Positions 3,314 to 5,424 of a stretch of DNA of 21,565 nt are shown here, one piece after another. How positions within the stretch are numbered: the stretch's first letter is position 1; every line of letters starts with the position of its first letter. Both the position numbers and the translations under genes were made by a program. Origin of the DNA: a virus; IMG/VR virus record IMGVR_UViG_3300018063_000046, positions 1 through 21,565 of that record, one strand, 5' to 3'. Under the pieces are notes generated by a model that was not told the DNA's origin, searched no databases, and saw nothing but the letters and a program-made list of their open reading frames with translations.

Positions 3314-4432
3314 TTACGGGTTCGGGTCCGCCGCGGCGGTGTCGAGAGCGATCACACCGAAGTCGCGGCTAACGGCCTCGATGGTAAACGCGGTCTTCTT
3401 CACGCCGAAGATACTGGCGGTCGTGATGACCGCCTGGTTGCCCCGGTCCTCCGATTCTTCGGTCCAGTCGAATCGAAGACCCGTGCCCGGTGATCCAAAG
3501 GAGACCACCCCGGCCTGGCGACCGAGGAAAAGAGCACGCGCGGCAAGCACGTTCGCGCCGGCGCCGTAGTCGCTGAACCGGATCACGCCCTTGTGCTTCT
3601 GGAGAATCGTGTCGGCATACATCCCCATCGCACCTTTGAACATCGGGCTGTTGTTGCCCTCCGCCCCCGCAGCCGCCTTCTGAACGTCGAGCCACTGGCC
3701 GGTCGACGAGTTGGTGCGCACGTCGAATGCTTGCCAGGGGTGCATGACGATCACGTACCGGCCCTCGCCGTCGATCTCGCACGGCTCGATGGCAGGGATG
3801 CCCTCGATGCCGCCACCCATCGTTTCCGCCTGGGTTTGCGCGCGCTCGACCAACGTGAGGTTGAACTTGTCGCCGACCACCAGCGTCGCCTTCGAGGTCG
3901 CCGCACCACCGAACAGGATGTGCTCGGTGTCCGGGGCCACGAAGCCGTTGTTGGCAAAGCCGGGGTAGCTCGTCGGGTAGATGTAGTCCGAGTTGATGCC
4001 CCGGGCCCCCGACAGGTACATGAAGAACAGCTCGTCGAAGATGCGAGCCCACCACTCGGACTGACGCACCCGGGCGATCTTGCGCAGATCGTGGATGGTG
4101 CGCTTGCGGGTCATCCGCCCGCCGGTATTTACACCGCCGCGTGCTTGGTCGATGAAGATCTGGTCCGTGTAGAACTTGAGGTCTTCTTCCTTGCCTCGCA
4201 GGGTGTTGTCGCCTTCGATCGGCTGCATCTTGAGTTGCAGCACGAGATCGTAGGTGATCTGCTCGCCGGCGTCGTTCTCCAGATTCGTGAGAAGCTGGAG
4301 CGGCGTCTGAGCAGTCTCGCCCCGGGCCATGAACTTCTTGCTGAAATAGGACTTGCGCCCTACGTCAACGGCCAGGAAACCGGAGTATTTCTTTACCGCT
4401 TTCGCATCATTGAGGCCTACGATCGTCTTCAA
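3314..4432 (-). CDS. Major capsid protein, N4-gp56-like (DUF4043-type), TTG start
   Basis: The product is 372 residues. Diagnostic pieces in order are GLNDAKAVKKYSGFLAVDV (6-24), SYFSKKFM, the segment around KRTIHDLRKIAR and EWWARIFDELFF leading into LSGARG (110-145), AATSKATL, RYVIVMHPWQAFDVRT (225-240), MFKGAMGMYADTIL, ARALFLGRQAGVVSFG, GNQAVI, and GVKKTAFT with DFGVIALDT at the end. This is the N4 gp56-type HK97-fold coat protein that forms the icosahedral shell. The start is TTG (4432-4430): it lies eight bases after a perfect AAGGAG, no in-frame ATG is near, and the family's N-terminal GLND...KAVK motif starts immediately. The first four bases overlap the GIY-YIG stop (TTGA). Upstream RNA structures can hide the ribosome site (see the 4436-4470 entries). 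Confidence 0.95.
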   Translation of the reverse strand: MKTIVGLNDAKAVKKYSGFLAVDVGRKSYFSKKFMARGETAQTPLQLLTNLENDAGEQITYDLVLQLKMQPIEGDNTLRGKEEDLKFYTDQIFIDQARGGVNTGGRMTRKRTIHDLRKIARVRQSEWWARIFDELFFMYLSGARGINSDYIYPTSYPGFANNGFVAPDTEHILFGGAATSKATLVVGDKFNLTLVERAQTQAETMGGGIEGIPAIEPCEIDGEGRYVIVMHPWQAFDVRTNSSTGQWLDVQKAAAGAEGNNSPMFKGAMGMYADTILQKHKGVIRFSDYGAGANVLAARALFLGRQAGVVSFGSPGTGLRFDWTEESEDRGNQAVITTASIFGVKKTAFTIEAVSRDFGVIALDTAAADPNP

Positions 4433-5130
4433 AGTAAGTGCTCCTTAAAAATTGAGCACTTCCTATGCTCGGTCCTTGCGAAATGCAGACCGTTTCCGGT
4501 CTGCCATTTGCGCGCAGCGGACTGCCAAATCATCTGCGCTGTGAGGCCGTGCTCTTTGCAGAACACAGCGACATTTTCGATCTCGACGCGCCTTCCATCG
4601 GGGAAGATCGCGGTGTAGTCCCACTTTTGGGCACGCTGATTTCCAGTGTGCGCTCTGGACATCTTCGCCTTCGTTTCGTCCGAAGCCTTGCGACCACGTA
4701 AAGCTGCGGCGTGAGCCGCGCGCCACTCCGGCCCGTGGCCTTTGCCTTTGTTCGATGCACTGATGCGCGCGCGCGTTTCTTCCGACGTGTTGATACGCCC
4801 CTGCCCGCCGTGCTTCATGTTCAGGAGCGGGATGCCGCGCCAGTGCGCACGAGCGATCCAATATTTCTCGCGCGCTGCGGACTCGGCGGGCGTGCATCCC
4901 TCGATGACGATCAGGTCCGGCCTGAGACCGGAAGCGCGAAGCTTGCGTATCCACTCGTCCTTCGGTGAATTATCGAACCTGCACTGCTTGAAATGATTGC
5001 GATCGCGCTGGCGCACATCGAGCGCCTTGCCGATGTAGCGCAGTTGATGCGAGCGAGGATCGATGAGGGCGTAAACGGAGGCCGTGGCTGCCTGAGAGGC
5101 TGGCCCTTCCGTTCTGGCGCATACGTTCAT
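4429..5130 (-). CDS. GIY-YIG homing endonuclease with NUMOD3 motifs
   Basis: The product is 233 residues from ATG 5130, chosen because GAGGAG lies eight bases upstream. A GTG at 5166 in the same frame is less likely because it would place the start within the leader hairpin at 5161-5177. The nuclease domain (about 17-110) shows SVYALID for GIY and RYIGK for YIG, then the R40/R43 region, E88 in AAREKYWIAR, and N104 in LLNMKHGG. Two NUMOD3-like DNA-binding helices follow (about 115-130 SEETRARISASNKGKG, 149-164 SDETKAKMSRAHTGN). A C-terminal part (176-219) contains a helix-turn-helix-like piece (VAVFCKEHGLTAQMIW). It cuts intron- or gene-less alleles to spread itself. It sits between a small CsrA-like gene and the capsid gene, and its last codons carry the capsid ribosome site. 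Confidence 0.92.
   Translation of the reverse strand: MNVCARTEGPASQAATASVYALIDPRSHQLRYIGKALDVRQRDRNHFKQCRFDNSPKDEWIRKLRASGLRPDLIVIEGCTPAESAAREKYWIARAHWRGIPLLNMKHGGQGRINTSEETRARISASNKGKGHGPEWRAAHAAALRGRKASDETKAKMSRAHTGNQRAQKWDYTAIFPDGRRVEIENVAVFCKEHGLTAQMIWQSAARKWQTGNGLHFARTEHRKCSIFKEHLL
4436..4461 (-). promoter_or_regulatory. Shine-Dalgarno-sequestering hairpin before the capsid start
   Basis: On the minus strand AAGTGCTC (4461-4454) pairs perfectly with GAGCACTT (4443-4436) across a 10-base AT-rich loop. The stem takes in GAG of the capsid AAGGAG site, and the remaining AAG lies in the loop. The TTG start follows three bases later. Its left arm is shared with the hairpin at 4454-4470, so only one of the two can form at a time. 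The pairing is seen directly. A regulatory role is inferred. Confidence 0.55.
4454..4470 (-). promoter_or_regulatory. TAGGAAG-loop hairpin, copy B (capsid leader)
   Basis: The minus strand reads GAGCA-TAGGAAG-TGCTC, a 5-bp stem with a 7-base loop carrying GGA. The same loop and inner stem recur at 5161-5177, where one stem pair is swapped (A-U for U-A). It is mutually exclusive with the SD-hiding hairpin at 4436-4461, so forming it would free the capsid ribosome site. It lies inside the final codons of the GIY-YIG gene. Confidence 0.5.
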
Positions 5131-5140
5131 CGAAAATGCT

Positions 5141-5160
5141 CCTCGGTTTCTCAACCAAAG
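5141..5160 (-). promoter_or_regulatory. Hairpin burying the GIY-YIG ribosome site
   Basis: The minus strand can fold as CTTTGGTT-GAGA-AACCGAGG, eight pairs including two G-U, with a GNRA-type GAGA loop. The right arm ends inside the GAGGAG site of the GIY-YIG gene. It abuts the hairpin at 5161-5177, so the two could stack. Hairpins that hide endonuclease ribosome sites are known from phage T4 homing endonucleases such as I-TevI. Here the function is inferred. Confidence 0.5.
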
Positions 5161-5177
5161 GTGCACTTCCTATGCAC
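5161..5177 (-). promoter_or_regulatory. TAGGAAG-loop hairpin, copy A (GIY-YIG leader)
   Basis: The minus strand reads GTGCA-TAGGAAG-TGCAC. One more G-C pair (5160/5178) is possible if the neighbouring hairpin opens. Thirteen bases (5163-5175) are identical to 4456-4468. The loop offers an unpaired GGA, the core recognised by CsrA-type proteins, although the preferred A-N-GGA context is not exact. Confidence 0.5.
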
Positions 5178-5182
5178 CACCA

Positions 5183-5232: not shown

Positions 5233-5424
5233 CTACGCCTGTTCCAAAAGAAAAGGTGACTTCACCCGTACAGGTTCAATCGCCACGCCCTTCTCCGACG
5301 AGAAATGCAGGCTCAGGCGCCGCCCGCTTTTCTGATTCGCCGTGACAATCACCCGCCCCGAGTCGATCGAAACCCGATCGCCGACCTCGAGGTTGATGAG
5401 AAGGGATTCGCGTGGTTCTTCCAA
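5233..5424 (-). CDS. Small beta-barrel protein, possible divergent CsrA-like regulator
   Basis: The product is 63 residues, starting at TTG 5424 with a GAGGT ribosome site that overlaps the scaffold gene's last codons. The sequence LLINLEVGDRVSID, then RVIVTA, SGRRLSLHF and KGVAIEPV can be laid on CsrA (LxILTRRVGE..IG, VxVTVL, GxxVRIG, APxxVxV) with one inserted residue. Length and strand order match a 61-residue CsrA. However, the residues matching CsrA Arg6 and Arg44, which are central to RNA binding, are not Arg here (Leu, and Glu/Pro). The gene sits directly before a GGA-rich hairpin leader and the capsid unit, which suits an RNA-binding or capsid-assembly role. It may instead be an unrelated small virion beta-barrel. 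The gene is likely real; the CsrA link is tentative. Confidence 0.6.
   Translation of the reverse strand: MEEPRESLLINLEVGDRVSIDSGRVIVTANQKSGRRLSLHFSSEKGVAIEPVRVKSPFLLEQA

Follow-up and report, generated by a model that had tools for sequence, protein, structure and literature searches.

A probable CsrA-type bistable leader before the capsid gene, and its hairpin before other late genes, in a family of phages

The window, by which is meant the whole 21,565-nt stretch analyzed (IMG/VR virus record IMGVR_UViG_3300018063_000046), carries on its minus strand a CsrA-like regulator gene, a homing endonuclease ORF and a major capsid protein gene (Table 1). A first-pass annotation made from the letters of the sequence had already named the capsid gene and the homing endonuclease whose tail covers the hairpin region, and profile matches confirm both identities. 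The last codons of the endonuclease run through the capsid switch described below, and its TGA stop overlaps the capsid start as TTGA. An endonuclease VII-like protein (phrog_1035, E 8e-16) is encoded downstream of the head genes, at 1267-1866 on the minus strand.

Table 1. Coordinates of the genes and leader elements discussed, in window numbering.
Feature	Position	Strand	Basis and remarks
Major capsid protein gene	3314..4432	-	TTG start 4432-4430; PF13252 E 2.6e-57, phrog_334 1.7e-104
Shine-Dalgarno AAGGAG of capsid gene	4441..4446	-	Sequence; GAG (4443-4441) inside hairpin 2
Hairpin 2	4436..4461	-	AAGUGCUC-(10)-GAGCACUU; RNAfold minimum free energy (MFE) fold and own-versus-swapped family pairing test; putative OFF state
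Hairpin 1, capsid copy (copy B)	4454..4470	-	Direct sequence; best match in window to covariance model R1, 15.4 bits; family alignment; putative ON state and CsrA-like binding site
GIY-YIG/NUMOD3 homing endonuclease ORF	4429..5130	-	PF01541, PF07460; inserted between CsrA-like gene and capsid
Hairpin 2 of second copy	5132..5170	-	Fold MFE -21.5, P(hairpin 1)=0.0005; sequesters GAGGAG 5144-5139
Hairpin 1, second copy (copy A)	5160..5178	-	GGUGCAU-AGGAA-GUGCACC; R1 14.7 bits; precedes endonuclease gene
CsrA-like regulator gene	5233..5424	-	63 aa, TTG start; phrog_8397 E 2e-4; proposed trans-acting factor

Two hairpins can be drawn on the minus strand around 4430-4470 (...ACCGAGCATAGGAAGTGCTCAATTTTTAAGGAGCACTTACTTTGAAG...). 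Hairpin 1 is made of GAGCAU (4470-4465), the loop AGGAA (4464-4460) and GUGCUC (4459-4454); the stem proposed earlier, five pairs of GAGCA with TGCTC, is there and is slightly longer, with 6 bp including the A-U and U-G pairs that close the loop. Hairpin 2, read as DNA, joins AAGTGCTC (4461-4454) across a 10-nt loop to GAGCACTT (4443-4436) in eight perfect pairs, and, as had been described, takes in half of the Shine-Dalgarno (SD) sequence and ends 3 nt from the capsid TTG. The two are mutually exclusive, having in common the bases 4454-4458 of the original claim or, in full, 4454-4459. Taken singly the structure is only moderately unusual: the predicted energy of the 61-nt segment is -15 kcal/mol (z -2.26), and 4 of 200 shuffles do as well. 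When the whole window was scanned with R1, a covariance model of hairpin 1 built on capsid leaders, the capsid site ranked first and a second copy at 5179-5159 ranked second. None of 14 loci searched against Rfam reached a gathering score and nothing relevant came up, and an E-value scan of the window gave three sub-threshold matches only, all elsewhere in it. An intrinsic terminator was rejected: no U run follows either hairpin, and the stem of hairpin 2 is succeeded by ACTTTGAAG, the start codon region. A nut-type (boxA-boxB) antitermination site was likewise rejected: most leaders have no TGCTCTTT, and those that do have it as the pairing partner of a GAGAGG-type SD.

Relatives were drawn from 80 IMG/VR loci with a related capsid and 205 phage records with a more distant one; covariation and folding were evaluated on 54 leaders, their capsids having been clustered at 90% identity. 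The hairpin pair is retained in about 70 related capsid leaders. Hairpin 1, NNGCGC-ANGA(N)-GUGCNN with a near-invariant core GCGC-ANGA(N)-GUGC, lies at the same place, with inner pairs C-G, G-U, C-G and G-C in the 54 leaders; these are occasionally exchanged (G-U to U-G, G-C, A-U or C-G; G-C to U-A or A-U), and the outer pairs vary freely, complementarity being mostly retained. Its covariation score is 0.357, against 0.139±0.021 for shuffled alignments (0/500), and cells with a change on both sides number 58 against 25.2 shuffled. The loops are ATGA in 16, AGGA in eight and AAGA in five of the 54 clusters, the others including five-nucleotide ANGAN and AGAAN forms, and the G-U wobble second from the loop is conserved in 46 of 53 distinct sequences. 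Being mostly ANGA, the loop is not the canonical ANGGAN closed by C-G; the likeness to it lies in position and GA content.

Hairpin 2 is conserved in another manner. The SD and start region is complementary, in most leaders, to hairpin 1's 3' arm together with the bases that follow, while the sequences themselves differ widely among phages: GAAGUGC.GCCUGU/ACAGG.AGCACUUC at locus L005, a 16-bp stem at L021, GAGUGACU/GGUUACUC at L053, and, in the AUGA-loop class, CAUGAGUGC/GCACUCAUG, where the start codon is often paired with the loop bases themselves. Less favorable to the model, capsid leaders of the LASTA/Pavtok type have their hairpin 2 arm immediately 5' of the SD. A swap test, in which every hairpin 1 3' arm was paired with every start region (n=40, 80% clustering), gave -11.5 kcal/mol for a leader's own combination and -8.1 for swapped ones (z -9.3, 0/20000 permutations); own pairing also beats arms taken from the five nearest relatives (P 3e-6), and the 5' arm of hairpin 1, a negative control, gives no pairing signal (z 0.7). 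Loss of either stem in homologous phages, or a lack of compensatory change, had been put forward as grounds for refutation; instead both folds are kept, with compensation, across about 54 divergent capsid leaders. A bistable leader with two mutually exclusive hairpins, each under selection, is thus strongly supported by sequence comparison, and the family covariation and own-versus-swapped pairing favor the original reading of a switch that would hide the SD.

The same hairpin appears before other late genes. Over 22 phage genomes or large contigs, R1 matched at 34 sites with 19 bits or more: 18 in capsid leaders, as expected of a model built on them, 14 at other genes, each a short distance upstream of a gene on the same strand, and two antisense. 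The antisense pair, at 20.2 bits, are homologous sites inside a gene, with no gene start there, in phages DC1 (NC_018452, 32129-32148, minus strand) and BcepIL02 (NC_012743, 32161-32180, minus strand). Including some weaker matches, hairpin 1 precedes endolysin or lysozyme genes in PBC5, Atu_ph08, POI1126, Skulduggery, Pavtok, Parlo and Itty13, giant DarB-like protein genes in PBC5, Atu_ph08 and POI1126, and virion or tail genes in POI1126, Mwe-JY07, Atu_ph08 and the L038 and L020 phages, several of these non-capsid identities being read from position and sequence rather than curated annotation. Most of the non-capsid leaders also have a competing SD fold (17 leaders, own versus swapped z -4.6, 0/20000). 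AGGA-loop hairpins lie 21-22 nt before genes 48 and 53 of F116, which is distantly related and has a canonical CsrA gene. A scan of the whole of IMG/VR for hairpin 1 together with a complementary start codon gave 63 matches, 60 of which open an ORF: 49 capsids, the rest, by inspection, DarB-like, lysozyme-like or other mostly virion-like proteins.

Which of the two folds is the default? Predicted ensembles put the probability of hairpin 1 below 0.1 in 48 of 54 capsid and 16 of 18 other leaders, and hairpin 2 is the MFE fold in 44 of 54 and 16 of 18, respectively; hairpin 1 is less disfavored in six leader clusters (L024, L052, L056, L059, L062 and L076). The gap is small in the window itself, where hairpin 2 is favored by 1.4 kcal/mol, hairpin 1 takes up about 4% of the free ensemble, and another weak helix is predicted over the start codon in the hairpin 1 state. 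Enforcing hairpin 1 raises the predicted exposure of the SD in 48 of 54 leaders. In prediction, then, the ligand-free fold hides the SD and formation of the putative binding site releases it; the SD pairing has the comparative support given above. Since hairpin 1 is improbable alone, the default state is probably OFF, with hairpin 2, the fold kept by complementarity only, hiding the SD; and since hairpin 1 so rarely forms unaided, the state whose sequence is conserved would need a ligand.

A candidate ligand is encoded just upstream. The window ORF alone has no Pfam match, and its similarity is to the phrog_8397 family, "CsrA-like" (Table 1); an alignment of the family matches RsmE, RsmA and CsrA chains in the PDB (best E 2.4e-9), and members from named phages match PF02599 above cutoff. 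An AlphaFold2 monomer (pLDDT 84.9) has CsrA, RsmA or RsmE as all of its top 14 Foldseek hits in the PDB, at 0.9-1.7 Å rmsd over 38-47 columns and probability 0.99-1.00, with E-values of only 0.05-0.5 for these 63 residues. The RNA-binding residues of CsrA (L4, R6, R7, V42 and R44) are not kept as a set among 45 phage proteins: R6 is replaced by L, I, V or M in 45 of 45, R7 is K or R in 35 and V42 is I or V in 44, and position 44 is R or K in 29 and P in the window protein. These substitutions suggest a divergent CsrA subfamily of changed specificity, and the loss of R6 and often of R44 is compatible with a shifted loop preference; together, the noncanonical loop and the missing R6 and R44 make binding by analogy less than certain.

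Gene and hairpin occur together. Of 89 loci scored, 70 have both a CsrA-like ORF and the hairpin and 13 lack both; the gene never occurs without the hairpin, and the hairpin is present without a detected gene at six; among these six, L018 is a truncated contig, and L033/L034 and L088 have a weakly similar ORF in the CsrA-like position (hhalign E 5e-4 and 3e-5, respectively). In the other two, PBC5 and Atu_ph08, the gene order is rearranged and the CsrA-like gene lies elsewhere in the genome, which argues for action in trans. Leaders of related capsids at L068-L080 and L091 have no hairpin and no detectable CsrA-like gene, with the exception of L076, in the same identity range, which keeps both; the R1 model found no hairpin in leaders without the gene. 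Such leaders show less structure (P 5e-4) and have more open ribosome-binding sites (P 0.006). They fall into seven clusters only, mostly in one divergent identity range, so that independent losses are few.

The best explanation, and a likely one, is a bistable translational leader controlled by the CsrA-like protein, which would act as an activator. Unbound mRNA would prefer hairpin 2, in which the 3' arm of hairpin 1 is held by the SD and, in many leaders, by the start codon as well, so that initiation is off; a dimer made from the gene just upstream would bind the ANGA or AGGA loop of hairpin 1, hold that hairpin, prevent hairpin 2 and expose the SD, turning translation on. With hairpin 1 also before endolysin, DarB-like and tail genes, this would amount to a small late-gene regulon. 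By analogy with ymdA, phz2 and moaA, the CsrA-like protein is likely to be the ligand of hairpin 1, and it is reasonably likely that its binding activates translation.

The opposite sign of control, though unlikely, is the strongest competitor: the protein would repress from hairpin 1, perhaps with the GGA of the SD, leaving hairpin 2 to serve as an additional brake or in RNA stability. Repression through binding close to the SD is common among known CsrA targets (PMC7652899), some SDs here have a GGA (AAGGAG in the window), and hairpin 1 ends only about 20-30 nt from the start, a distance at which bound protein could also hinder the 30S subunit. Many SDs of the family, however, lack GGA (GAGAGG, GAGG), binding of hairpin 1 necessarily prevents the hairpin 2 that hides the SD, and two OFF states would leave selection for exact mutual exclusivity unexplained. 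Improbable, and more so than repression, is a cotranscriptional switch without ligand, in which hairpin 1, being 5', would form first and leave the SD briefly open before the thermodynamically favored hairpin 2 took over in most leaders, the CsrA-like gene being a passenger or acting elsewhere; the near-invariant core and loop of hairpin 1 would then go unexplained, as would the co-occurrence with the gene, including in phages where it is far from the capsid.

Translational coupling is suggested by the window alone, where the endonuclease ORF spans both hairpins and stops within the capsid start: translating ribosomes would melt the hairpins and re-initiate at the TTG, so that capsid output followed that of the endonuclease. 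Relatives, however, have the switch without an overlapping upstream ORF, the CsrA-like stop typically lying 55-125 nt upstream, which makes coupling at most a local addition and never the general mechanism; as a full account it is very improbable, and in the window phage it may add to control. That the hairpins are incidental, short inverted repeats such as are common in a GC-rich leader or selfish gene, is hardly credible despite the modest single-sequence z-score, because the comparative evidence (family conservation, covariation and the swap test, along with the matches before other late genes) settles the matter against chance.

Several known systems resemble the activating leader proposed. 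Protein-binding hairpins at phage gene starts that control translation are familiar from the MS2-type coat-protein operator; the phage leader described here differs from these in its protein family, its loop and its competing second hairpin. Closer is E. coli ymdA, which CsrA activates by opening a hairpin over the SD (Renda et al., 2020, PMC7492729), with Pseudomonas phz2 and E. coli moaA activated similarly by proteins of the CsrA family (reviewed in PMC7652899). Shared with these leaders are a CsrA-family protein and a 5'-leader hairpin sequestering the SD, whose removal by binding is shown for ymdA and proposed for the phages; unlike in the ymdA type, the phage protein is phage-encoded and divergent, the binding and SD hairpins have one arm in common and are mutually exclusive, the loop reads ANGA(N) instead of ANGGAN, and the arrangement is repeated in front of several late genes. 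The hairpins bound by RsmE have an ANGGAN loop (PMC7652899), and the hexaloop hairpins of CsrA/RsmE (hcnA, the RsmZ stem-loops) are like hairpin 1 in their short stem, C-G closing pair and A...GA loop; in the phages the loop is shorter and often without GG, although AGGA(N) is found in the window, F116 and others, and a G-U wobble is conserved second from the loop.

The gene itself has been seen before, at the same position: named Bcep22-like phages have, directly before the capsid, a gene annotated "CsrA-like regulator" (phrog_8397), whose function is not given (PMC7366521), and the CSP3 paper calls its CsrA-like gene a moron (PMC10269572). Earlier work names no target for these genes, and a search of open-licence papers gave none that connects the CsrA-like genes of phages with the leaders of capsid or other late genes, or that describes such a leader or late-gene set. 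Capsid and other late-gene leaders are now a concrete proposal for the target of genes catalogued without function. CsrA-type translational control is already known; here it would come with a new layout of the switch and a phage-encoded, divergent factor.

Late-gene timing in tailed phages is usually described as transcriptional, through sigma factors, antitermination or the phages' own polymerases. Here several late genes would apparently be timed at translation, by a phage RNA-binding protein acting via one repeated RNA element. The balance of evidence leans towards the divergent phage CsrA branch being a dedicated translational activator of late genes, recognizing a re-shaped ANGA hairpin that stands before the genes for capsid, endolysin, DarB-like and tail proteins, in each case opposed by a fold that hides the SD. 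If so, this would be a post-transcriptional early/late switch in many phages whose hosts are diverse bacteria, some of them reportedly without csrA; Burkholderia cepacia and B. cenocepacia are without a chromosomal copy (PMC7366521). The phages would also offer a natural series of protein-RNA pairs along which CsrA specificity may have drifted.

A further peculiarity of the window is that the switch is duplicated. Copy A (GGUGCAUAGGAAGUGCACC, 5178-5160), which lies downstream of the CsrA-like gene, is similar to the capsid leader of L003, where there is only one; the endonuclease ATG at 5130-5128 stands behind the GAGGAG SD that the hairpin 2 of copy A would sequester. Copy B, before the capsid, partly encodes the C-terminus of the endonuclease, read in frame, and is set apart from copy A by a compensatory A-U/U-A exchange (GAG..CUC versus GUG..CAC). 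The endonuclease gene would thus have taken over the ancestral capsid leader, the second copy, overlapping its 3' end, serving the capsid: a homing endonuclease that slipped under the control of its host gene's switch, with the switch preserved. Two tandem hairpins without an endonuclease are found at L001 and L002 (about 90% capsid identity), so that the duplication is either older than the insertion or a remnant of it. At L017 (1959-3000) and L022 (1988-3000) a similar GIY-YIG gene follows the CsrA-like gene and precedes a capsid leader that is not duplicated; the CsrA-like/capsid interval is a recurrent insertion spot.

Two smaller observations concern the presumed dimer. Seven loci (L025, L028, L031, L035, L036, L041 and L054) have, a few tens of nucleotides 5' of the capsid hairpin, a further ANGA hairpin, suggesting two binding sites per dimer. 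At L056 (2614-2934) the CsrA-like ORF has 107 aa and looks like a tandemly duplicated CsrA domain, which may amount to the dimer in a single chain.
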